Notes: generated by a model not told the origin, from the sequence alone. A stretch of 64,000 nucleotides of DNA from Pedobacter xixiisoli (GCF_900215335.1 NZ_OCMT01000004.1:558001-622000); one strand, 5' to 3'. Shown: positions 16,169-29,921, counted from the stretch's first letter. Numbers and translations are program-made.

Positions 16169-16242
16169 GGTTCGGTAGTTCAGCTGGTTAGAATGCCGCC
16201 CTGTCACGGCGGAGGTCGCGGGTTCGAGTCCCGTCCGGACCG
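16169..16242 (+). tRNA. tRNA-Asp (anticodon GTC)
   Basis: 74 bases folding as a full cloverleaf. The acceptor stem GGTTCGG / CCGGACC has one T-G pair. The D arm starts GTTC, the anticodon stem is CCGCC / GGCGG around CTGTCAC (GTC), and the T arm is GCGGG / CCCGT with TTCGAGT. The discriminator base is G. The 3' CCA is not encoded. Confidence 0.97.
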
Positions 16243-16244
16243 CA

Positions 16245-16647: not shown

Positions 16648-19386
16648 ATGGAATCAGCAAAATACATCATCTGTAGAGCTTGTGCATTACCGAAGGACGC
16701 ACAACTATCAATCTATTGGGAACAGTTAAAAGCATTAATCGCAAGTGCTTCTCCAAGCTTATTTGAACAGATTGCCAATACAGATCATTCAGCACTTGAC
16801 CAGCTCGATAAACGTACGAGGATCAGTATTGAACGCTACTTTAATCGAACTAGGTTCCGTCCCGTTCCGTATGGAAAGTTCTCGACAGTGGGATTGCTGC
16901 GGAACGAAGAAAATAAAAATGATGAACCTGTGCTCCATACTCAAATGGAACTGCTCAACTTTAGAGATTGGACGGAGATCAAAAAACTGGCAACGGCTGC
17001 AATTACTTGGACAGATGAGTTGATGTGGCGTACACAGGCTACACTCTATACTCATGAGGGTACACATTACTTTTTCCAATCTACCGAAGGCCAAACGGAG
17101 CTGTTTTCCTTAAATGGATTTGAAGAACTAGACCGATTACTTAGCTTTTGCAGCTTATCAAGGTCGACAGCAGAAATTAAAGATTTGGTGGGAAATGATT
17201 GGGATTTTTTCAGGGATATGATGTCCCAACTTTTGGAGCTTCAGGTATTAGTGCATAGCCATTTGCCTAATATTACTGGAGCAGATTATTTTCAACGTAT
17301 TGGCTTAGCAACTTTTGGAGAGCAATTAAATGACTATTCGATTTATATCAGACATGCAGCTAAAGGTTTTTGTAATATAGGCTTGGAGCAGGAACTTGAA
17401 CGTTATGTAGCTTTTGCAAATGAACATCTGCCGAGCCCAACTTTGAATGATCTAGCTGAATTTAAGCTACAGTTCACGAAGCGTTATGAGAACCAATGGC
17501 AACCTTTAGCACGGGTGTTAGATCCAGAAAAGGGCTTGGGCTATGCAGGGCTTTCTAATTCGGGTAATGATGATCTCGTCACACTGTTGCCGAAACAAGA
17601 GCTTATGCCACAATATCTGTTGCTGGATGATCTTTCGATGTTCTTGCTGAATGGGATGCTTGGTGGCAAAGCCGTAAATCTCGAAAATTTTACCGGTAAA
17701 AATATAGATCGTGTAGCACTGCCCAACACACTTAATGTATTGCTACAGCCAGCTAAAGATGGAGTATGGGCCGTAGAGCATATTGGCGGACCAAGTGCAA
17801 CTAACTTACTGGGAAGGTTTGCTAAAGATACGCATATCGCCAATTTTACTGGAGAATTGGTCGATTTAGAGCAAAAAGCTAATGCTGAAGTAAAATTCTT
17901 TGACATTGCCTATCAAACAGACCAACGGACGGATAATATCAACCGTCGGCCACAACTCTATGAATTAGAACTAACTCTCGGTGGTTGGTCAACTCATCCC
18001 AAGCAGTTACAGTTGGCAGATTTATTTATTAACGTAATTGGAGATGAACTGGTGTTGTATAGCAATCGCTATCAATGTCGTGTGGTGCCTAGAATGGCTT
18101 CGGCATACAATATTCTTCGCTCTAGTCATCCTTTGCTACGCTTACTTGCCGATTTACAGTATCAGGGTATGCAACATCAGTTCTTGCCAGATTTAGAGCA
18201 GCGTTTTCCTAATATGGATTATTATCCTCCCTTAAAGTTTGGTAAGCTTTTATTGCAGCCTGCGAAATGGAAAGTACCTTCTTCAGCAAAAGTTGCTAAA
18301 ACCGAATTAGACAAATGGCTGGATGAAAAGGTGTGCAATAGGTTTATTCGTATTGGGCGCTCAGATCAGTACCTATGTTTAGATTTAGAACTCGACATGG
18401 ATCGAGAATTATTATGGGATAGCTTACAGCGAGATGCAGGACTACAGTATATCTCTGATTGGCCTTCGGGAGGTGAGCAGGGGATGTTGGATACCGAAGG
18501 AAATCGCTTCAGCTATCAGTTGCATTGGGCATTAACCCATCAAAAGCAAGTTTATGCACCAGTAACTGTTTTCAACAAGCCGCCACATCAGAAAAACTGG
18601 TCTGTGGGAAGCGACTGGTTTTTTATGTCTCTATATGCTTCGCCCGAAAATCAAACCCATATACTCAAGGAGTTAATTGCCCCGCTATTATTGAAGCATG
18701 AAAATGTGGTGCAAAACTGGTTCTATATTCTTTACAGTGATCCAGATAAGCATATCCGCTTGCGTATAAAATGGCATGCAGATGCCAGTGCTAAGATAAA
18801 ATGGCAAGTACTGAATGAAATAGGTGGATGGCTTGGTAGCTACGGAATTAGAAATACGGTGATGAAGCCTTACGAGCCGGAGTGGCAGCGCTATGGTACA
18901 GCTACCATGATGGCAACCGAGCATTTCTTCGAATTGGACAGCGTACAGGCCACAGCAGTTATGGATATGGATGAAGAAGAGCGATTGAAGGTTTGCTATG
19001 GCTGGATTTGGGGGATGATAGGACATGTATTGAAGGATCATCTCAAACAAAAGTTATTCTTGGAAAAGATGGCCTCGATGTTTGCTCATGAAATGGGATG
19101 GAGTAAAGTGGAGTTTAAAATCCTCAATCAGTATTGGCGAAACATGGAGATTCCTGCTATTGATGCTTTTCCTAAAGCCAATATGTTGCAAGTATGGGAA
19201 GAAATTTGCCTCATTACGTCTGCTGAAGATCAGGAACAACGTTTAGCAGATTTTATCCATATGCATGTAAACAGGAGATTTCCAACCCACGCTAGAGTTA
19301 GGGAAGCGCAATTGTATCAGTATTTACTGCTGCATTTGAAACGGGTTTCAAAACGAGCTGAATTGGCACTCGTAGCTGTACGCTAA
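16648..19386 (+). CDS. LanB-type lantibiotic dehydratase with thiopeptide-type (SpaB_C) C-terminal domain
   Basis: 912 residues, slightly short for a full LanB. The N-terminal dehydratase has the conserved block RYFNRTRFRPVPYGKFSTVG (residues ~63-82), in the place of the family's RxxxRxTPFGxFAG. The C-terminal elimination domain (~634-900) has SDPDKHIRLRIKW and PYEPEWQRYGTATMMATEHFFELDS-type blocks. LanB enzymes glutamylate Ser/Thr of a precursor using Glu-tRNA, then eliminate glutamate to give dehydro-residues; both halves appear present here. No LanC, transporter or protease is nearby. The likely partner is the 53-residue Cys-free peptide at 20503. The 3' end overlaps the facing kinase gene by 89 bases. 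Confidence 0.92.
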   Translation: MESAKYIICRACALPKDAQLSIYWEQLKALIASASPSLFEQIANTDHSALDQLDKRTRISIERYFNRTRFRPVPYGKFSTVGLLRNEENKNDEPVLHTQMELLNFRDWTEIKKLATAAITWTDELMWRTQATLYTHEGTHYFFQSTEGQTELFSLNGFEELDRLLSFCSLSRSTAEIKDLVGNDWDFFRDMMSQLLELQVLVHSHLPNITGADYFQRIGLATFGEQLNDYSIYIRHAAKGFCNIGLEQELERYVAFANEHLPSPTLNDLAEFKLQFTKRYENQWQPLARVLDPEKGLGYAGLSNSGNDDLVTLLPKQELMPQYLLLDDLSMFLLNGMLGGKAVNLENFTGKNIDRVALPNTLNVLLQPAKDGVWAVEHIGGPSATNLLGRFAKDTHIANFTGELVDLEQKANAEVKFFDIAYQTDQRTDNINRRPQLYELELTLGGWSTHPKQLQLADLFINVIGDELVLYSNRYQCRVVPRMASAYNILRSSHPLLRLLADLQYQGMQHQFLPDLEQRFPNMDYYPPLKFGKLLLQPAKWKVPSSAKVAKTELDKWLDEKVCNRFIRIGRSDQYLCLDLELDMDRELLWDSLQRDAGLQYISDWPSGGEQGMLDTEGNRFSYQLHWALTHQKQVYAPVTVFNKPPHQKNWSVGSDWFFMSLYASPENQTHILKELIAPLLLKHENVVQNWFYILYSDPDKHIRLRIKWHADASAKIKWQVLNEIGGWLGSYGIRNTVMKPYEPEWQRYGTATMMATEHFFELDSVQATAVMDMDEEERLKVCYGWIWGMIGHVLKDHLKQKLFLEKMASMFAHEMGWSKVEFKILNQYWRNMEIPAIDAFPKANMLQVWEEICLITSAEDQEQRLADFIHMHVNRRFPTHARVREAQLYQYLLLHLKRVSKRAELALVAVR

Positions 19387-20416
19387 AACCTCCGTTGTCA
19401 TCTGGGCCGTAAGCAAATGAGTGTGAATCTCCGTAGGCGTTATAAAGCCTTGTCGCCAAGTTTTGTAGGCCAGTTTTAGTAGATATGGCCGGTTTGTGAT
19501 CGCTGATTTTGTTCCAAGTGGAAATCTGTAGCTGGTCATCTTCCAGCATTAACTGCATCTGGGCATCGGCTTGGCTGAGGTCGCCGTGTTTGAAACAATT
19601 TTCGGCCAAAGTGAGTAACACAAGGGGAACAAATTGTAAGTTGCACACTGCTAGTTCATAATCCAGTAGCAGTGTGCCCTCGTTTTTCTTTAGGGAGTAT
19701 AGGTAGATGATATCTTCTACTTGCTCCAGCTCTTCGCCTAACTTTACCTTGTCATCCACGTGCTCAACATCAAAAGCAAACCTCATGACGTTAGCTAGCC
19801 TAGTTACGGCCTCACTAATCTGCGGTGCCGATTTCAATGATTGAAAATGGATATAGTTGAGAATGTTGAATAAAAAATGCGGGTTGATTTGTGCCTTTAA
19901 AAAGGCATTCTGCATCATGTCCAGCTCTCTTTGGGTTTGTTGTTGCTTGATGATAGCTTTTAACTGCTGTGTTTCGAGCTCTTGAGCATGCTTGCGCTGT
20001 GCAATGAAGCTATATAGGTAATAATATCCAGTAGAAAAACCCATGAAGAAAAGCCCTCTATAACCATTGCGTAGAAAGCTTGGCCAAGTCATGCCATATA
20101 GGGGTTTGATTGGTTTTTGGAGAAGATGCGTTAGGAAAATCTCTCCTAGCCAATGCGCAAGAATGTAGATGAGTAAGAAAATGATGCAGAACAACGGTAT
20201 CCATAGCCACTGCAATTTCTTCTTTCCAATCCATGGTAATACTTTGTTAGATTGAAAGTAAAACAGAGCGATGGTGATGGCATAATGAACAACATAGTTG
20301 ATAACTGGAGCACTCATCTCGTACAATATGTTGGTGATGATGGTTTCCCAACTGATGAACAGTGACCATACCAGGGCATGGAGCCTAAAACTTTTTTTAG
20401 CTATCATTTTTAACAT
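19298..20416 (-). CDS. LytS/YehU-type sensor histidine kinase (His_kinase family)
   Basis: 372 residues. Several membrane segments lie at about 12-30, 40-58, 70-95 and 118-138, followed by a helical linker. The His_kinase motif KAQINPHFLFNILNYIH gives phospho-acceptor His180. A degenerate ATPase domain follows (LTLAENCFKHG N-box, then TGLQNLATRLYNAYG). It has no large external sensor domain, so the signal may be sensed within the membrane, as in some peptide- or envelope-sensing LytS proteins. The cognate regulator is the LytTR gene at 20685. Its tail overlaps lanB on the other strand by 89 bases. Confidence 0.92.
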   Translation of the reverse strand: MLKMIAKKSFRLHALVWSLFISWETIITNILYEMSAPVINYVVHYAITIALFYFQSNKVLPWIGKKKLQWLWIPLFCIIFLLIYILAHWLGEIFLTHLLQKPIKPLYGMTWPSFLRNGYRGLFFMGFSTGYYYLYSFIAQRKHAQELETQQLKAIIKQQQTQRELDMMQNAFLKAQINPHFLFNILNYIHFQSLKSAPQISEAVTRLANVMRFAFDVEHVDDKVKLGEELEQVEDIIYLYSLKKNEGTLLLDYELAVCNLQFVPLVLLTLAENCFKHGDLSQADAQMQLMLEDDQLQISTWNKISDHKPAISTKTGLQNLATRLYNAYGDSHSFAYGPDDNGGFSVQLRVPIQLVLKPVSNAAVNTDTIALP

Positions 20417-20435
20417 TCCACATCGGTAAATAGGG

Positions 20436-20487
20436 ATTTCAAATAACAGATTTTTCTTTGGATGCTACAAGAGCTAATTTCAAATAA
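20436..20487. promoter_or_regulatory. Paired direct repeats between the kinase and peptide genes, possible LytTR site
   Basis: ATTTCAAATAA occurs exactly twice, at 20436-20446 and 20477-20487, 41 bases apart start to start (about four helical turns). The region is the 86-base divergent gap between the kinase start and the peptide start. CTAATTTCAA, overlapping copy two, recurs as its complement 29-38 bases upstream of the response-regulator start (21457-21466). LytTR regulators typically bind paired direct repeats, so these are candidates; the AT-rich background weakens the case. Confidence 0.45.
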
Positions 20488-20502
20488 TAAGCCGTAAGCA
20501 TT

Positions 20503-20664
20503 ATGGAAAAAACAAGAGTAAAATTGGAAATTAAAAAAGTGGGTACTTTTAAGAAGGCCCACGTTAAAGTTGCTGCTCTCGACACAGGCGATCCCACGTC
20601 TACATTAACCTCTACAAAGACAACTATTGGTGACTTTAATTTTGGTCACCTTCGTCATCTTTAA
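20503..20664 (+). CDS. 53-residue Ser/Thr-rich, cysteine-free peptide; candidate LanB substrate
   Basis: Too short to appear in usual gene lists. ATG 20503 is the only start, since an in-frame stop lies at 20488-20490. Residues 1-25 are Lys-rich and alternating hydrophobic (VKLEIKKVGTF), as in RiPP leaders of Bacteroidota. Residues 28-30 read TGD. Residues 31-41 (PTSTLTSTKTT) hold eight Ser/Thr in eleven positions; the tail is GDFNFGHLRHL-like with two His. There is no Cys, so lanthionine rings cannot form. It has its own terminator in the 3' end of the facing regulator gene. Role as a LanB substrate is inference from composition and position; I recognise no named family. Confidence 0.7.
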   Translation: MEKTRVKLEIKKVGTFKKAHVKVAALDTGDPTSTLTSTKTTIGDFNFGHLRHL

Positions 20665-20673
20665 CAACATGGA

Positions 20674-20707
20674 TGGGAAAGTTACTAACGTTTCTTTCCC
20701 ATTTTTA
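20674..20707 (+). terminator. Terminator of the peptide gene, inside the regulator's 3' end
   Basis: TGGGAAAG (20674-20681) pairs perfectly with CTTTCCCA (20694-20701) around a 12-base loop, then TTTTT on the plus strand. It begins 10 bases after the peptide stop. The stem covers the last codons and stop of the response regulator on the minus strand. Confidence 0.75.
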
Positions 20708-21428
20708 TGACTCTCTCGTCCAAGAATGACTGGAAGGTTGGTCGGTACATTTCGCCTACAGTAATCTTGGCTCCACTGGCCATTACCAAAGTATTACCTT
20801 CAACATATTCTATAAAGTGTTTATTGATGATAAAGCTTCTTTGCACTTGGATGAAATCTGGTTGCCCATTTAGTTTTTTAGCCAGCTCGCTCAAGGTCAT
20901 GTAGGTAATCACTTGACGATCTAATGCCTGGAGCTCCACATAATTGTTCTTGCTTTCAATGACGACAAGCTCTTTTAGTTTTACTTTGATGAGCTTAGAG
21001 CCCTGTTTGGCCTTAACGAAAATAAAATCCTCTTCGCTTCCCATTTCCATCGCGTTTTTTTCTGTTTCTAGCTCTTCTGGAAAAAGGCGGTGTAATGTAG
21101 CCAACATTTTGGCAAGTGAAAATGGCTTTAACAAATAGGCATCAGCATGGCTTTCAAAAGCATCAAATGCATATTTGGTATGCGCAGTGGTAAACACCAA
21201 TTTACCCACTTGGCCACGGATAGAATTAGCCAGCTCAATACCATTCACTTTTGGCATATCTACATCCAATAATAATAAATTAACCTTGTTTTTAAGCAGA
21301 AAAGCCATCGCATCTACAGGGTTAGTAAAGGTGGCTTTCACTTCCATACCAGGAAAACTTTCCATGTAAGATACAAGGCCTGCTACCGCATTGGGGTCAT
21401 CATCTACAATTACACAAGTCATATTCAC
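20685..21428 (-). CDS. LytTR family response regulator
   Basis: 247 residues. The receiver domain (1-~120) has acidic residues D9-D11, phospho-acceptor Asp55 in LLLLDVDMPK, the TTAHTKYA segment and Lys101. The LytTR DNA-binding domain (~133-240) starts DFIFVKAKQGSKLIKV and has YVELQALD and FIQVQRSFIIN. It is upstream of the LytS-type kinase on the same strand but separated by 268 bases that carry the peptide gene on the opposite strand. It probably controls lanB and/or the peptide; targets are inferred only. The stop codon lies within the peptide gene's terminator. Confidence 0.93.
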   Translation of the reverse strand: MNMTCVIVDDDPNAVAGLVSYMESFPGMEVKATFTNPVDAMAFLLKNKVNLLLLDVDMPKVNGIELANSIRGQVGKLVFTTAHTKYAFDAFESHADAYLLKPFSLAKMLATLHRLFPEELETEKNAMEMGSEEDFIFVKAKQGSKLIKVKLKELVVIESKNNYVELQALDRQVITYMTLSELAKKLNGQPDFIQVQRSFIINKHFIEYVEGNTLVMASGAKITVGEMYRPTFQSFLDERVIKMGKKR

Positions 21429-21872: not shown

Positions 21873-24662
21873 ATGAACTTTTTGTACCGCATCAGCTTTG
21901 CGTTATTTTTCGCAGTATTTATTGTTTTTCCTTCTAATGCACAACAACTTGCATTTCCAACTGCACAAGGGTTTGGGAAATTTGCAACTGGTGGTAGAGG
22001 TGGAAAAGTATATACCGTTACTAATTTAAATGATGCTGGCGCAGGAAGTTTTAGAGAGGCTTTTAACGCTTATCCCGGTGAACCGTTAACCATTGTTTTC
22101 GCTGTAGGTGGAACAATAGAACTACAATCTCAAATCAAAGTAAACAGATCGAACTTTACCATCGCTGGTCAAACGGCTCCAGGTGATGGAATTTGTTTAA
22201 AGGGCCACTCTTTTATCATCAACGGGGCTAGAGCGGCCAATCTAGGCGGAAACCACGGTAATATCATTATAAGGTATTTACGTTCTAGACCGGGTAGTAC
22301 ACTTCCTACTGGCGTTTACGGATTTGATTTGGAGAACTGCCATAATGTAATTGTAGATCATTGTTCGTTTAGCTGGGCAAACGAAGAATGTGCCGCTATG
22401 TACGATATGGAGAACGTAACTGTGCAATACAGCATGGTTAGTGAAGGTCTATTTAATGCAGGGCATGCCAAAGGAAATAGAGGTTATGGTGGTGTTTGGG
22501 GCGGGCAATACGTTTCCTATCATCATAATTTATTTGCACACTTAAATGCTCGTTCGACTAGGTTTAACGGTGCAAGGGCTCATGACGTAAATGCATTGGT
22601 TGATTACCGTAACAACGTAATTTATAACGCTGGAACAAGAAATGCAGCTGCAGGTGGCGCAGTGAATATCGAAAACTCATTCTCTCGTATCAACTTGGTC
22701 AATAATTATTATAAACCAGGACCTGCAACGCCATCAGATTACCTTTTTATAGAAGCGGATTATGAAGCAGCTGAAGCAAAAGGGGTGGGCGAATTCCATG
22801 TGAGCGGTAATGTGATGCATGGAAATTCAGCCAAGACGAATGATAATTGGAGTGCAGTAAGTTTGACGAAAATTCCCGCTAATTTACAGGCAGATGCACA
22901 ATCATCAGTGCCTTTTGTAGTGGCACAGTCCATTATGACGCAAAGTGCTGACGATGCCTATTTAGACGTACTGAAAAATGCTGGTGCAAACTTGCCTGTT
23001 AGAGATGCTGTAGATAGAAGGGTAGTTAGTGAGACATCTACCGGTACAGCTAGTACAGTAGGTATTACTTCTGGTAAAAGAGGCATTATAGATTTGCCTA
23101 ATGAAGTGGGAGGATGGCCGGCCTATAATTCGGGAACTGCTTTAGTTGATACTGATGGCGACGGTATGCCAGATACTTGGGAGCAAAACAATGGTTTGAA
23201 TGCTAATGACGCAGCAGATGGAAATACGGTAAATGATCAAGGATATACGATGTTAGAGGTTTACCTCAATGGCATTTCAGCCTCTGTTGCTAGTACTTAT
23301 GAACTGATGGGTTTTGCTGCAACTTTAAACTCGGGCAGTACTACTACGGCAACTTTAAATTGGGTAATAAATAACGATGTTGACCTACAGAATTTCATCA
23401 TAGAGCGTAGTGCAGATGGACAAAATTTCAATACAATTACTACTGTAAACAGTCAAAAAGGTGCTGGCTTAAACAATTATACTTATACAGATAATAATCC
23501 TTTGGCTTTTACTTCTTACTACAGGTTGAAATTAGTGGCAACAAATAACCAAGTTAACTATAGTGACAACAAAATAATTAGTAATCCAATTGCACAAGCC
23601 TATTGGATGGAACCATTTACGAATACAACGGTAACTAGTATTGCCAAACCTGCTACGATAGAAAACTCTATACAGGATAATGGCACTTGGATTTTATATG
23701 GGGCACAAAGAGAAGAAAAGAGCGTAAGTGATGTAGATGCGAATAATCAATGGACAAATGGGGTATCAAATCCTAGTTTAAAAATTTTGAATAGGAATGC
23801 AGGTACTACAACTGATTACACGTTAACAGAAGATCCTTATGTGATTACACCAATTTTTAACCAGGGGATATCGAAAATTACTTTTTACGAAAACCAGCGA
23901 GCTAGCATCAATGCCAATAGCATTAAAATTTATACGTCTACCAATGGTGGGCAAACTTGGAGTACCACTGCTATTTCCAGTGCGGCCAAATCTTTAAAGT
24001 TTGATTTAATTACAGTGCCAATTGAAGGTGCAAATATCAACAGGTTAAAGATTACCAAGCCTGCTGGTGTTACGATGAATATTGATAACCTCACTATTTA
24101 TGCTCCAGTTGGTACCACGCTTCCGCTTGATTTTGTTTCTTTTAGCGCTACGCTCAAGAAATCCTTAAATCATAAAACTGTTTTACTTTGGAAGACTGCT
24201 AATGAGGTTAATACTGCCTATTTCGAGATATTACGAAGCATTAACGGTAAAGATTTTTCAAGAATAGGTGGTTTATCTGCAGTCAATCAACCAGGTACTC
24301 ACATTTATGAGTTTGAAGATGAGAAATTATTGACTGGGGTAAGTTACTATCGTATAAAACAAGTTGATTTGGACGGAAAATATACTTACAGTGAGATCAG
24401 GTCTGTGAACAATCGTTTAGAAGGCCAGCTTAATTTTTATCCAAATCCAGTTACAAAAGAGCTTACTTTAAATCATCCAGCGGCAGGTGTTGGAACTTCC
24501 TTAAACCTTTATGATATTTCCGGACGCTTGGTTGCCACCAAAACTGTAGCAGCGGACTTAACCCAGTCAAAAGTGTCGCTACAACATCTTCCTCAAGGAA
24601 TTTATCTTTTAAAGTACAAAACTACAACTGAAGTGATCTCCCTAAAGGTGATTAAGCAGTAA
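21873..24662 (+). CDS. Secreted pectate lyase (PL1-like) with T9SS sorting domain
   Basis: 929 residues. Signal peptide ends near PSNAQ (residue ~24). The catalytic beta-helix (~28-420) has the pectate lyase blocks GGRGGKVYTVTNLNDAGAGS, IVDHCSFSWANEE and YRNNVIYN. A calcium-loop motif DTDGDGMPDTWE is near 426. Two fibronectin-like or carbohydrate-binding stretches follow, then a C-terminal sorting domain (~850-929) with LNFYPNP, LYDISGRLV and GIYLLK, which sends proteins out through the type IX system. It would cleave polygalacturonate by beta-elimination outside the cell. First gene of a three-gene pectin operon. Confidence 0.92.
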   Translation: MNFLYRISFALFFAVFIVFPSNAQQLAFPTAQGFGKFATGGRGGKVYTVTNLNDAGAGSFREAFNAYPGEPLTIVFAVGGTIELQSQIKVNRSNFTIAGQTAPGDGICLKGHSFIINGARAANLGGNHGNIIIRYLRSRPGSTLPTGVYGFDLENCHNVIVDHCSFSWANEECAAMYDMENVTVQYSMVSEGLFNAGHAKGNRGYGGVWGGQYVSYHHNLFAHLNARSTRFNGARAHDVNALVDYRNNVIYNAGTRNAAAGGAVNIENSFSRINLVNNYYKPGPATPSDYLFIEADYEAAEAKGVGEFHVSGNVMHGNSAKTNDNWSAVSLTKIPANLQADAQSSVPFVVAQSIMTQSADDAYLDVLKNAGANLPVRDAVDRRVVSETSTGTASTVGITSGKRGIIDLPNEVGGWPAYNSGTALVDTDGDGMPDTWEQNNGLNANDAADGNTVNDQGYTMLEVYLNGISASVASTYELMGFAATLNSGSTTTATLNWVINNDVDLQNFIIERSADGQNFNTITTVNSQKGAGLNNYTYTDNNPLAFTSYYRLKLVATNNQVNYSDNKIISNPIAQAYWMEPFTNTTVTSIAKPATIENSIQDNGTWILYGAQREEKSVSDVDANNQWTNGVSNPSLKILNRNAGTTTDYTLTEDPYVITPIFNQGISKITFYENQRASINANSIKIYTSTNGGQTWSTTAISSAAKSLKFDLITVPIEGANINRLKITKPAGVTMNIDNLTIYAPVGTTLPLDFVSFSATLKKSLNHKTVLLWKTANEVNTAYFEILRSINGKDFSRIGGLSAVNQPGTHIYEFEDEKLLTGVSYYRIKQVDLDGKYTYSEIRSVNNRLEGQLNFYPNPVTKELTLNHPAAGVGTSLNLYDISGRLVATKTVAADLTQSKVSLQHLPQGIYLLKYKTTTEVISLKVIKQ

Positions 24663-24703
24663 GAATAACCTAACCAAATCATCAACTAAAAACCACTAAG
24701 CGT

Positions 24704-27700
24704 ATGAACAAAAACTTTACTCTATTTATTTGCGCCCTGCTGTTTTTTGTACAGCAAAGCTGGGCACAAGAGAAACTGCTTTACTCTACGGAGTTTAATG
24801 CGGCAAGCAGTAATGCACAAAGCAATTGGGCTGCGGTAGCAGCCACCTCATCAGAACAAACAGTAACTAAAACCACCGATTTTTCTGCTGAAAGTTTAAC
24901 TTTTAAATTTTTTCAGATAGCTGTTAGTCCTACTGCTGTAGATGCGGCTAGGTTTAAATATGCACCTGCGGCTGCTGATGCAGGTGGTGTGCAGGTAACT
25001 GCTGGCTGGGCGCAGGCTCAGAAAAATTTGGGTTCTTATATAGAACTATCCGCCTTAAATTCAATTACCAAGGTTGTTTTTACCCATGGTGCAACGGGAG
25101 GTAGCAGGGGCTACAAACTTTGGAAAAAAGTTGGTAGTGGTGCATGGACAGAAGTTTCTACTTCATTTGCTGTTCCTAGTTCGGGGCAACAGGTTACGGT
25201 TAATATCAACGAAACCAACGTAGCACTAAAGTTTACTAACTTAAACGACCCGCAAAATGCTTATCTGTTTGATTTGAAAATTTATGGAAATTATACTTCT
25301 ACAGTTACCCAATATCCTTTAACTACAACGTTAAGCAATGCCGCTGCTGGAACTATTGCTCGTTCGCCAAATGCTACAGATTATGATGCAGGTACCGATG
25401 TAAGCCTAACCGCCACCTCAAATTTCGGCTATCGTTTCGTGAAATGGGTGGATGCTGCCAACGGCGATGCTGATTTATCGACAGCAAACCCTTATACGGT
25501 AACCATGAATGCTTCAAAATCCGTTAAAGCAGTTTATGAAGCCAAAAATACCTACACTTTTACGGTAACTAAAGAAGGTTCTACTTGGGGCGAAGTGAAG
25601 TTGACACCAGAGCCGACCAATGGAAAATATGAAGAAGGCACTGAAGTTACCATGGATATCATCTCTAACCCTGTAACTACCTTTAGCAGATGGGAAGATA
25701 ATACCACAGCTGCACAACGAACCATTTTAGTAAACGGAAACAAAGCCTTTACCGCAACTTTCGATGAAATTCCTTTTATTGTTGGATGGAACTTTAAGGA
25801 CCAGAATATTAAGACTGCTAAAATTGGAGATTATTATGCTGAAAGTTCCAATACGGGTACCATTTCTGTTTTTGAACCAAGTGGTACAGCAGTGAACTGG
25901 CTGTCTAATGCAGGAACTTTTTCTCCAAGCTATCCTAACATCAGGTTTTGGACCGCAGGAGCAGATTTTGCGACTAAACGTCGTTATCTGCAAGCACAAA
26001 TTTCTACTACAGGTTATAAAAATATCCAAGTCAGATCTTTAGTGAGCGCAAACTATCAGGCCTACAAAGTGATGACTTTGCAATACTCTACCGATGGAAC
26101 AAGCTTCACAGAAGCGGGTCGAGTGGATATCACAGAGGTGTACAATAGTGCTTGGAAAGATTTTAGTGTTACGCTTCCAGTAGGAGCTGAAAACCAAACC
26201 CGTATTTACTTGCGTTGGGTAGCCGACGCAACGAGTGGCTTGCTAGGCACAAGTACTGATAACGATGGTAGTGCATTCACTAATATCTACGTTTATGCAG
26301 ATAAGGAAGTGGTGAATGATACTGCTGCGCCTCTACTGGTTTCTACCACACCTGCAAATGCATCTAGTACCGCAACCATTAATGGCTCTGTAGTGCTTAC
26401 CTTTAATGAACGTGTAAAACTTGGAACTGGTAGTATCACCTTAGGTTCAAAAACTTTAGCAGGTACTTTTGGTTCAAAAACGGTAACTTTTCCTTACGAG
26501 AAATTAAGTTATAACACTAGTTATACTGTTACTGTTCCGAATGGTGCATTAACAGATATGTCGGGCAATGCTTATGCGGGGACTAGTTTTACCTTCACCA
26601 CCGCTAACAGAGCGGAACCAACTAAAAAACTTTACGATGCCATTGTGGCAAAAGATGGCTCTGGAAATTATACTTCGGTAATTGATGCCATTGCAGCAGC
26701 GCCTGCAAGCCGTACCATACCGTGGATAATTTTTGTGAAAAATGGAACTTACACAGGCCATCATGATATTCCTGCAAACAAACCGTTTATTCACTTAATT
26801 GGCCAAAATCGTAATGGAGTGATCATTACCGACAATCGCTTATCTGGTGATGATGAAAAAGGAACAATGGTTTATCATGTGAGTTTAGGAGCAACGATGG
26901 TGGTTAATTCGCCAAACGTGTATTTCGAGAACATCACTTTCGAAAATTCTATAGGATATAATGACTTAACTGGTCCGCAGGCATTGGCTTTATACACGAT
27001 TGCTGATAAATTTGCCATGAATAACTGCTACCTGAGATCTTATCAAGATACTTATTTAACAAGCTATAACAGCCTATCAGCCAGACATTATGTTCGCAAG
27101 TCGAAAATTGAAGGAGCAGTTGATTTTGTTTATGGCGCTGGAGATGTTTTTTTTGAAAGTGATACACTTGCCATCAATAGATCTACTGGCGGATATATTG
27201 TAGCACCAAGCCATCAATCGGGTACGGCTTACGGTTATGTGTTTAGTAATAACGTAATTACCAGAGCGAACAAGGTATCAAATACAGGCACTAACCCTGC
27301 CACCAATGTAGATGGTAATAGCATCAATGTCACTACCTATCTTGGTCGCCCTTGGCAAAATGCAGCTAAAACGGTGTTCATTAATACAAAGCTTGCTGCA
27401 AACCTTAGTGTTTACCCAGAGGGATGGGCAGCATGGAATAATGCACCAGCCATATTTGCAGATTATGGAACGGTAAACAGTAACGGACAAGCAGTAGATA
27501 TTTCACAGCGTAGGTCTTCATACCCTGTTGGAGGAAATAATATTGCAGCACAAAGTAGCCTAACCGATAATGAGGCTGCGAACTATACCTACGAAAATGT
27601 GATTTTGCGTAGTGGCGATTCTTGGGATCCGCGTTTGATTGCCGAAGCGCCAGAACAGCCTGGTAATCTAAGTGTAAATAGCAGTTTTAAATTAACTTGG

Positions 27701-28432
27701 GATGCGGTAAGTTACACTCGTTTGTATGTAATAACTCGTAACAACGCAGTTATTGGCTTTAGCTTAACTAACGAATATACCGATGCTACGGCAACTGCTG
27801 GCACTAATTACATTTACAAAGTGCAAGCGGCAAGCGAGTACGGTGCATTGAGTACAGCTGCTGAATTAAATCAGGTGTTGCCAATTACAGGTTTAACTTT
27901 TAATGCTAAAAAGGTTGGAAATACTGCGGCGTTAAATTGGAGCACCTTATCTGAAAAGAATACTTCACATTTTGATATTGAAAGAAGTAGCGATGGAAAA
28001 GCATTTGAGAGAATTGGAAAAAGAGATGCAGTTGGAGAAAGTAGTTCTTTAAAAAGCTATCAGTTTGCCGATGTTAATCCATTAAGTGGTTATAACTATT
28101 ACCGCGTTAAAGCGGTAGATAAAGATGGACAATTTAGTGAAAGTACTGTTTTATCTTTAAAATTCGATTTACAAAGTACAGCATTCAACATCTATCCAAA
28201 CCCAACAGCGAATCATGAGTTTAGCATCGATTTACTTTTAGCAAAAGCTGATGAGGTAACGGTAAAAATCATTTCGTTAGATGGACGTGTTTTACAAACC
28301 GAAACTGGAAACTGGTTGCAAGGTAAGTCTGCCAAAAAGATAACGCTTAACAGCAACATTCCATCTGGCATTTATCTAGTTAATATCAGCGGAAATGGCT
28401 TAAATGAAGTTTCAAAAATAGTGGTGAAATAA
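24704..28432 (+). CDS. Multidomain secreted pectinesterase (CE8) with T9SS sorting domain
   Basis: 1242 residues. Order: signal peptide (ends WAQ, ~22); beta-rich N-terminal module to ~200; two Listeria/Bacteroides-type repeat modules ~205-350 (FGYRFVKWVDA, VTTFSRWEDN); a beta-sandwich module to ~545; an SbsA-like Ig domain ~546-635 (AAPLLVSTTPAN); CE8 pectin methylesterase ~640-960; a fibronectin-like part; and a T9SS sorting domain (~1165-1242, FNIYPNP, GIYLVNI). CE8 active-site blocks are present: YQDTYL, GAVDFVYGAG with the catalytic Asp, and LGRPW. It removes methyl esters so that the neighbouring lyases can act. Starts 42 bases after the lyase. Confidence 0.93.
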   Translation: MNKNFTLFICALLFFVQQSWAQEKLLYSTEFNAASSNAQSNWAAVAATSSEQTVTKTTDFSAESLTFKFFQIAVSPTAVDAARFKYAPAAADAGGVQVTAGWAQAQKNLGSYIELSALNSITKVVFTHGATGGSRGYKLWKKVGSGAWTEVSTSFAVPSSGQQVTVNINETNVALKFTNLNDPQNAYLFDLKIYGNYTSTVTQYPLTTTLSNAAAGTIARSPNATDYDAGTDVSLTATSNFGYRFVKWVDAANGDADLSTANPYTVTMNASKSVKAVYEAKNTYTFTVTKEGSTWGEVKLTPEPTNGKYEEGTEVTMDIISNPVTTFSRWEDNTTAAQRTILVNGNKAFTATFDEIPFIVGWNFKDQNIKTAKIGDYYAESSNTGTISVFEPSGTAVNWLSNAGTFSPSYPNIRFWTAGADFATKRRYLQAQISTTGYKNIQVRSLVSANYQAYKVMTLQYSTDGTSFTEAGRVDITEVYNSAWKDFSVTLPVGAENQTRIYLRWVADATSGLLGTSTDNDGSAFTNIYVYADKEVVNDTAAPLLVSTTPANASSTATINGSVVLTFNERVKLGTGSITLGSKTLAGTFGSKTVTFPYEKLSYNTSYTVTVPNGALTDMSGNAYAGTSFTFTTANRAEPTKKLYDAIVAKDGSGNYTSVIDAIAAAPASRTIPWIIFVKNGTYTGHHDIPANKPFIHLIGQNRNGVIITDNRLSGDDEKGTMVYHVSLGATMVVNSPNVYFENITFENSIGYNDLTGPQALALYTIADKFAMNNCYLRSYQDTYLTSYNSLSARHYVRKSKIEGAVDFVYGAGDVFFESDTLAINRSTGGYIVAPSHQSGTAYGYVFSNNVITRANKVSNTGTNPATNVDGNSINVTTYLGRPWQNAAKTVFINTKLAANLSVYPEGWAAWNNAPAIFADYGTVNSNGQAVDISQRRSSYPVGGNNIAAQSSLTDNEAANYTYENVILRSGDSWDPRLIAEAPEQPGNLSVNSSFKLTWDAVSYTRLYVITRNNAVIGFSLTNEYTDATATAGTNYIYKVQAASEYGALSTAAELNQVLPITGLTFNAKKVGNTAALNWSTLSEKNTSHFDIERSSDGKAFERIGKRDAVGESSSLKSYQFADVNPLSGYNYYRVKAVDKDGQFSESTVLSLKFDLQSTAFNIYPNPTANHEFSIDLLLAKADEVTVKIISLDGRVLQTETGNWLQGKSAKKITLNSNIPSGIYLVNISGNGLNEVSKIVVK

Positions 28433-28433
28433 G

Positions 28434-29921
28434 ATGGTAATTAGGTTTTGTAGAGTAATTGGACTTTGTTTACTTGCAGGCTTGCTGGTTTTTTGTAAAA
28501 AGAAATCGGTTAAAGAAGATGTAGGAATTGATCCAAAAGATAAACCAGTATTGCTGACTGAACAAGCTTTGGCTTTTCCTGGAGCCGAAGGTTTTGGCAA
28601 AGATGTTACGGGTGGAAGAGGAGGTAGGGTAATTAAAGTAACCAATTTAAACGATGCCGGTGCTGGAAGCTTAAGAGCCGCGGTTGAAGCTGCTGGAAAG
28701 CGAATTGTAATCTTTGAAATTAGCGGTACCATAGAGCTACAAAGTAAGCTGTCCATCATCAATAACGATATAACCATCGCTGGGCAAACTGCTCCTGGCG
28801 ATGGTATTACACTAAAAAACCATCCGGTTGTTGTACAGGGCAGTAATGTCATTATCCGATTCATGCGTTTTAGGATGGGCGATGAAGGAGGAGTTGAGGC
28901 CGATGCCATTGGAGCTTTCGAAACTAGGGACATCATTGTAGATCATTGTTCTATGAGTTGGTCGGTGGATGAATGTGTGTCATTCTATAATAACGATAAC
29001 TTTACTTTGCAGTGGAGCATCATTTCTGAAAGTTTGAGAAACTCAGCCCATGCTAAAGGTGCGCATGGTTACGGTGGTATTTGGGGCGGAAAAAATGCTT
29101 CCTTCCATCACAACTTAATTGCCAACCACGATAGTAGAAATCCGCGTTTTGGAGAAAGGGCAAACAGTGCGTATGCGCTTACTGATTTGGTAGATTACCG
29201 AAACAACGTGGTTTACAACTGGGGCGGAAATAGTTCGTATGGCGGTGAAGCAATGAATATCAACATCGTTAACAATTACTATAAGCCTGGGCCAGCCACT
29301 AAAAGCGGCGTAATGGATAGAATTTATTCACCCGATAAGAATAAGGAAGCCACTTCTGCAGTTTTTGATAAATGGGGTAAGTTTTTTATTAGTGGTAACG
29401 TAGTTGATGGGCGAACAAACCCAACTGCCGACAATTGGACTTATGGGGTATATAACCAAATCCATTCTCAATACGGAACTGTTTCGCAGCTGGATAAAGA
29501 AGCCATGCGTTTGAATACTGCTCATCCTATTAACAACAATGTGGTAACGCATACTGCTGAGGTAGCTTATGAAAAAGTATTGGCAATTGGCGGTGCTAGT
29601 TTTAAAAGGGATGCCGTTGACGAAAGAATCATTACCCACGTGAAGAATAAAACCTTTACGGCACATGGTTCAAGCGGAGATGCTTTGAGTAGGTTTGGGA
29701 TTATTGACCGACCTGCTGATGTAGGTGGATGGCCAGTGTTAAATACACTGCCACCGCTAAAAGATACCGACGGAGATGGTATGCCCGATGAATGGGAAAT
29801 CAGCAAGAAACTTGATCCAAATAAGGCCAATGCAAACGGCAGAGATTTAAGCACAGCTTATGATAATATCGAAGTTTACATCAACGAGCTAGTTAAAAGT
29901 ATTGCAGATAAACAAAAATAG
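28434..29921 (+). CDS. Lipoprotein pectate lyase (PL1-like)
   Basis: 495 residues. The N-terminus has a hydrophobic segment and lipobox LLVFC followed by KKK, so this copy is lipid-anchored. The catalytic region closely resembles the first lyase: FPGAEGFGK, GGRGGRVIKVTNLNDAGAGS, IVDHCSMSWSVDE and DYRNNVVYN, then DTDGDGMPDEWE near 444. It lacks a T9SS domain. It starts 1 base after the esterase stop, so the genes are co-transcribed. One secreted and one anchored lyase suggest two-stage pectin cleavage, outside and at the surface (inference). Confidence 0.92.
   Translation: MVIRFCRVIGLCLLAGLLVFCKKKSVKEDVGIDPKDKPVLLTEQALAFPGAEGFGKDVTGGRGGRVIKVTNLNDAGAGSLRAAVEAAGKRIVIFEISGTIELQSKLSIINNDITIAGQTAPGDGITLKNHPVVVQGSNVIIRFMRFRMGDEGGVEADAIGAFETRDIIVDHCSMSWSVDECVSFYNNDNFTLQWSIISESLRNSAHAKGAHGYGGIWGGKNASFHHNLIANHDSRNPRFGERANSAYALTDLVDYRNNVVYNWGGNSSYGGEAMNINIVNNYYKPGPATKSGVMDRIYSPDKNKEATSAVFDKWGKFFISGNVVDGRTNPTADNWTYGVYNQIHSQYGTVSQLDKEAMRLNTAHPINNNVVTHTAEVAYEKVLAIGGASFKRDAVDERIITHVKNKTFTAHGSSGDALSRFGIIDRPADVGGWPVLNTLPPLKDTDGDGMPDEWEISKKLDPNKANANGRDLSTAYDNIEVYINELVKSIADKQK

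Follow-up and report, generated by a model that had tools for sequence, protein, structure and literature searches.

Class I lanthipeptides (nisin, the Chryseobacterium and Runella clusters and the pinensins) are built from leader/core precursors by LanB dehydratases, with LanC, core cysteines, an exporter and protease and an LxLxKx5L...GG leader. Other LanB homologues act without LanC on Cys-free precursors, as in the PEARL-made RiPPs (pearlins) and the pyritides, where the enzymes are truncated or split (PEARL ligases, or a split LanB plus a pyridine synthase). Linaridins and goadsporin are linear peptides with dehydrobutyrines, and agrBDCA of Gram-positive bacteria combines the membrane protease AgrB, a small peptide with a thiolactone Cys, a polytopic kinase and a LytTR regulator. 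The locus described here shares traits with each of these. It lies in the window, a 64,000-nucleotide stretch of Pedobacter xixiisoli (GCF_900215335.1, NZ_OCMT01000004.1:558001-622000) on an 824-kb contig of the 4.97-Mb genome, and consists of genes for a LanB, a small peptide, a histidine kinase (HK) and a response regulator (RR) (Table 1).

Table 1. Features of the LanB–peptide locus, in window positions
Feature	Position	Strand	Basis or detail
LanB, full-length class I lanthipeptide-type dehydratase, 912 aa	16648..19386	+	PF04738/PF14028
LanB glutamylation and elimination domains, both present; elimination domain at residues 657-894			Pfam
LytS-type histidine kinase (HK), PF06580	19298..20416	-	Pfam, alignment, predicted model
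Gap of 86 bp separating the starts of the divergent HK and peptide genes	20417..20502	.	block CATTCYACATCGG...GGxTTYCAAATAACAGATTTTT
Precursor peptide, 53 aa, ATG start	20503..20664	+	Lys-rich leader about 20503-20586
Predicted core GDPTSTLTSTKTTIGDFNFGHLRHL	20587..20661	+	leader/core border placed by alignment
Terminator-like hairpin (ATGGGAAAG...CTTTCCCAT) + TTTTT	20668..20709	+	-16.6 kcal/mol, z -4.95
Response regulator (RR), receiver + LytTR DNA-binding domain, 247 aa	20685..21428	-	PF00072 + PF04397

A first-pass annotation had claimed a LanB with both dehydratase and elimination domains, and Pfam bears this out (Lant_dehydr_N, E value 5e-47; Lant_dehydr_C, E value 3e-34): the protein has both catalytic domains of a full-length class I enzyme. 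The catalytic roles of the corresponding NisB residues are well established. In the sequence alignment, R67 and R71, invariant across the family, correspond to NisB R83 and R87 (glutamylation), while R704, R706, R748 and H871, likewise invariant, correspond to NisB R784, R786, R826 and H961 (elimination; numbering of the NisB RYG and HxxxNR motifs, R826 and H961, from PMC3091789). The predicted structure (pLDDT 84.9) matched MadB, MibB and NisB with Z scores of 27.9, 25.8 and 25.5, respectively, over 831-864 residues. As the catalytic residues of both domains are invariant and the predicted fold is NisB-like, this LanB is expected to be a complete and active dehydratase. lanB is preceded, at a distance of a few hundred bases, by a tRNA-Asp gene (16169-16243).

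The peptide gene encodes the Cys-free product that the first-pass annotation had reported, with eight Ser/Thr in residues 31-41 (PTSTLTSTKTT), and its core carries the family hallmark (T/G)DPT followed by a Thr/Ser run. The ORF is a real gene: it is the sole match to the family profile in the genome (E value 1.9e-13, the peptide being itself a profile member), pN/pS in relatives at the same position indicates purifying selection (0.39 in the window group and 0.35 in 26 Pedobacter loci) and a hairpin follows its stop codon. Codon comparison placed tighter purifying selection on the leader (pN/pS 0.28) than on the core (0.46). Neither this peptide nor eight further family members matched any NCBIfam model, including the class I leader model NF038153 (lant_leader_L1a), and none of the precursor-family members tested reached the cut-off of a Pfam or NCBIfam model. 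A hidden Cys-containing precursor for this LanB elsewhere in the genome, a check that had been proposed at the outset, was rejected, as none was found: NF038153 returned nothing over cut-off anywhere in the genome, which holds one LanB, with no second copy, and one peptide of this family.

The HK and RR genes flank the peptide gene, and neither had been mentioned in the first-pass annotation. Alignment and structural model give the HK a sensor of about residues 1-140, in which four membrane helices joined by short loops pack into a compact bundle, followed by DHp/CA domains, with H180 and N273 invariant in the alignment. The HK gene is convergent with lanB, overlapping it by 89 bp. The peptide and RR genes converge tail to tail, with the hairpin between them just past the peptide stop codon; a consensus promoter/terminator scan near the peptide returned nothing above chance and, permitting loops of 3-8 only, did not list this hairpin. 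The block in the gap between the HK and peptide genes was also seen in four relatives, more weakly in L066.

By LanB locus, the closest relatives of the window belong to Pedobacter and Nubsella. Among 301 searched genomes from this bacterial family, 150 carry LanB relatives, and the two closest loci in this search (55% and 51%) retain the peptide, HK and RR. We compared 121 loci, comprising the window, 40 loci from family genomes and 80 named from a public scan (Pedobacter, Mucilaginibacter, Nubsella, Olivibacter, Hufsiella, Taibaiella and Sphingobacterium), with some genomes appearing twice. HK and RR adjoin LanB in 117/121 loci, most often in the order LanB+ HK- RR- (85), followed by RR+ HK+ LanB+ (20) and LanB+ RR- HK- (11). 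Precursor relatives were present in 116/121 loci, one to eight in each and up to eight in tandem, and the peptide ORF was intact in relatives that keep lanB. Every further gene family was limited to at most 10 of 41 loci, and neither LanC nor any exporter, protease or immunity gene was conserved. The precursor profile, built from 30 hand-collected peptides with these seeds counted among its matches, returned 176 matches inside modules and none outside among 15,277 small ORFs. Precursor leaders are Lys-rich and carry a motif resembling K-x-x-F-x-(Y/F)-K; cores are (T/S)DPT-Thr-rich (25% Thr, 10% Ser), with Cys in 10 of 131 distinct cores and always single.

The Cys-free peptide, LanB, HK and RR therefore form a set that, read from these genomes, is family-wide and apparently undescribed. 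The first-pass proposal of a new type of RiPP, in which LanB and a Cys-free peptide belong together and LanC is absent, was upheld by this recurrence across relatives; what it had missed are the constant HK/LytTR partners.

Several loci depart from the common pattern. Cores ending in a single Cys (...TTSINCTV, ...VSKTC) were found in L137, L144, L157, L164, L165, L180 and L182 (also L103/L184, L162 and L181), a branch mostly of the LanB+ RR- HK- order, several genomes of which lack any LanC. Tandem arrays of five to eight closely similar precursor genes lie between HK and RR in L096, L102, L179, L176, L159 and L171. L111, L205, L235 and L244 are exceptions: the LanBs of these loci belong to the same superfamily, but neither HK nor RR was detected in the vicinity. 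The LanB closest of all to that of the window (60%) is in L106 (JASCOD010000002.1), recorded as a Flavobacteriaceae bacterium; its name or lineage may be wrong, or the module may have moved horizontally.

No LanC was found near LanB in the window locus, in agreement with the first-pass claim of neither LanC nor Cys, and the LanC-domain proteins of the genome are confined to a class II (LanM) locus on another contig. This locus (L005, contig C8:815001-835000) encodes a LanM-like 1019-aa protein with a LanC domain, a second 340-aa LanC-like protein, a peptidase-type ABC transporter, a membrane-fusion-like protein and a TonB-type receptor. Supply of LanC in trans was rejected for most genomes, since a LanC-domain protein is absent from 30/39 and 11/14 related genomes (partly overlapping sets). 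The same family also contains a second LanB type, about 1000 aa long, which has the same arrangement with its own Thr-rich peptides; in its loci L193, L197, L198, L190, L200 and L202, the peptide gene is directly followed by a conserved gene of ~385 aa without a Pfam match. The LanB relatives in several other families of Bacteroidota belong to canonical LanB+LanC clusters, several of which have Cys-rich precursors with a GG leader (L207, L213, L220, L221 and L223), and LanB, HK, RR and LanC occur together in L206, L208 and L210. The module may plausibly have arisen when a regulated lanthipeptide cluster lost its LanC.

Whole-genome profile searches also returned family peptides far from LanB. 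Each of the 20 remote peptides examined is flanked by an HK and an RR from the module families, arranged as in the LanB loci, and 19 of these triads have no LanB within the 12-15 kb examined, LanB being encoded elsewhere in those genomes. The constant unit is thus peptide, HK and RR, and LanB appears to act in trans on the remote peptides. Peptides were present in 28/30 genomes with LanB versus 0/20 without it (including 0/7 of the same genus).

We assessed covariation as distance correlations between the parts of the loci, in plain form that ignores the kinship of the loci, with LanB, kinase-domain and RR distances removed for the core–sensor partial r. Across 93 non-redundant loci, the core–sensor partial r was 0.37 (0.31 with entropy-matched columns; permutation maximum 0.08) and the leader–LanB partial r 0.38 (0.34 with entropy-matched columns), while core–LanB, core–kinase and core–RR values were about 0. 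The 26 close Pedobacter loci, in which sensors and cores have diverged by 0.50 each, kinase domains by 0.15 and RR by 0.07, gave a core–sensor partial r of 0.61 (0/2000 permutations). In type-1 loci, cores co-vary with the HK sensor and leaders with LanB. Linkage does not explain the core–sensor signal, as the leader is nearer to the sensor-coding end yet does not track the sensor. The core–sensor signal was weak (0.16) in the 67 most divergent type-1 loci, and the 35 loci tested for the second LanB type failed to reproduce the covariation (core–sensor 0.09, p 0.12; leader–LanB -0.12). The remote triads alone gave a core–sensor value of 0.26 (p 0.001); the leader–LanB link was absent from them, and core–LanB was unexpectedly 0.34.

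Upstream of RR, TTACAy(C/G)AA repeats occur in pairs with a spacing of 20-22 bp in 26/26 Pedobacter loci, and the same word also precedes the peptide gene in 26/26; the pairs belong to these relatives and were not found in the window itself. Their spacing is that expected of LytTR proteins. Together with the window-group block, the repeats are compatible with LytTR autoregulation, though short of proving it. This footprint emerged only inside the Pedobacter clade, and a search for gapped 4+4 words over all loci returned uninformative A/T runs only.

Compared with the described systems, the module resembles agr in logic, although by membership it would not be classed as agr. Both comprise a modifying enzyme, a small peptide, a polytopic kinase and a LytTR regulator, with a fast-evolving peptide core and sensor and with direct-repeat sites (here in relatives), and a LytTR regulator and a multi-pass membrane kinase do lie beside the peptide gene. 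However, LanB takes the place of the AgrB membrane protease, the kinase is of the PF06580 family with four membrane helices, the phylum is Gram-negative and a single LanB seems to supply several channels in trans; neither AgrB protease nor AgrD recurred in the loci, and the cores lack a thiolactone or lactone Cys. With class I lanthipeptides the module shares a NisB/MibB/MadB-homologous LanB and a leader/core precursor, but it has no exporter or protease, no LxLxKx5L...GG leader, no LanC and cores that are nearly always Cys-free; on the last two counts, it is not a class I lanthipeptide system. A LanB homologue without LanC beside a Cys-free precursor is reminiscent of pearlins and pyritides; unlike theirs, this LanB is complete and stands alone, and as its elimination domain is present, its predicted product is not a PEARL product. 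Nor do the loci resemble thiopeptide or pyritide clusters: in place of a split LanB and a separate pyridine synthase, they have a single fused LanB and no other conserved enzyme. The likeness to linaridins and goadsporin lies in the predicted linear peptide with dehydrobutyrines, but judged by gene-family recurrence no linaridin or azole enzymes recur, and the constant partner is instead a two-component system.

The gene set, its conservation, the intact catalytic residues, the Cys-free cores, the peptide–HK–RR linkage and the covariation make it likely, in our judgement, that LanB, peptide, HK and RR constitute a four-part peptide-signalling module with agr-like logic; signalling is the most likely role because an HK and a LytTR regulator are constant partners of the peptide even without LanB. 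LanB would bind the Lys-rich leader and, using glutamyl-tRNA, convert Thr and Ser of the core into dehydrobutyrine (Dhb) and dehydroalanine (Dha). Given the lack of both Cys and LanC, we propose that the product stays linear, or else closes by non-enzymatic chemistry. A linear, multiply dehydrated peptide is the best candidate: a merely glutamylated product is less likely, as glutamylation and elimination residues are both conserved, and no conserved extra enzyme of the module indicates another cyclisation. After presumed leader removal and export, the mature core would be the ligand of the LytS-type kinase encoded divergently from its gene; the kinase would phosphorylate the LytTR regulator, which would act on the module promoters (autoinduction) and probably on other genes too. 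In many Pedobacter genomes, one LanB would serve several peptide–kinase–regulator channels in trans. The broader proposal of a new Bacteroidota class of RiPP pheromones, linear Dhb/Dha peptides made by LanB without LanC, each with its own LytS-type kinase and with one LanB feeding several channels per genome, we hold to be evenly balanced between right and wrong.

Other readings have to be weighed against signalling. A spurious ORF, or a decaying lantibiotic precursor beside an orphan LanB, would be short and belong to no Pfam or NCBIfam family, as is the case here, but the conservation of position, geometry, motif and purifying selection across genera and the strict co-occurrence of the peptides with LanB refute a chance ORF and leave this reading a negligible probability. 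PEARLs, being LanB relatives that work without LanC on Cys-free precursors (PMC11002830), raise the prospect that LanB does not dehydrate at all and that the bioactive peptide bears a glutamyl group or a ligated amino acid; this is quite unlikely, as PEARLs are short and lack the elimination domain, whereas here that domain is complete, with R706, R748 and H871 invariant.

An antimicrobial role under autoinduction, in which HK and RR only sense a bacteriocin-like dehydrated peptide or another cue and switch on production, is unlikely but the most serious competitor: LanB products are often antimicrobial, an HK and RR next to lantibiotic genes are a classical arrangement (NisRK sensing nisin), and the clusters of other Bacteroidota that join LanC to HK, RR and LanB (L206, L208 and L210) look like intermediates. 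Against it, exporter, immunity and protease genes are not conserved, triads without LanB would be odd for a biosynthetic cluster and core variation follows the sensor. Signalling has its own difficulties, as LytTR/HK pairs are common in Bacteroidota and an HK and RR also accompany precursors in autoregulated bacteriocin clusters; moreover, the lack of a conserved exporter or leader peptidase leaves signal release without account, and the covariation fails in the second LanB type and is weak at deep divergence. The missing exporter and signal peptide, the compact sensor bundle with its short loops and the requirement of LanB for Glu-tRNA (PMC9993889) would instead suit a modified peptide that is retained within the cell or membrane, where it modulates its own kinase, reporting glutamyl-tRNA supply or another internal state with no signalling between cells. 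We consider such an internal gauge somewhat less probable again than the antimicrobial role, as hypervariable cores and sensors are more typical of between-strain specificity.

No description of such a system was found in the openly searchable literature, and earlier work on lanthipeptides of Sphingobacteriaceae or Pedobacter may mention orphan LanBs. Mining led by LanC with Cys-requiring precursor scoring (Walker et al. 2020, PMC7268733) is built to miss such LanB/peptide sets. If the signalling module is real, it would explain what a large number of 'orphan' LanBs in Sphingobacteriaceae do biochemically, extend the RiPPs by a type that probably ends in a linear dehydrated peptide and make peptide signalling concretely testable in a Gram-negative phylum, with the hypervariable core/sensor pairs as a natural laboratory for signal specificity.

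Next to the RR, at 21873-29921, the window encodes large secreted proteins that by eye resemble pectate lyase and pectin esterase, and this stretch could be part of a pectin-use region.
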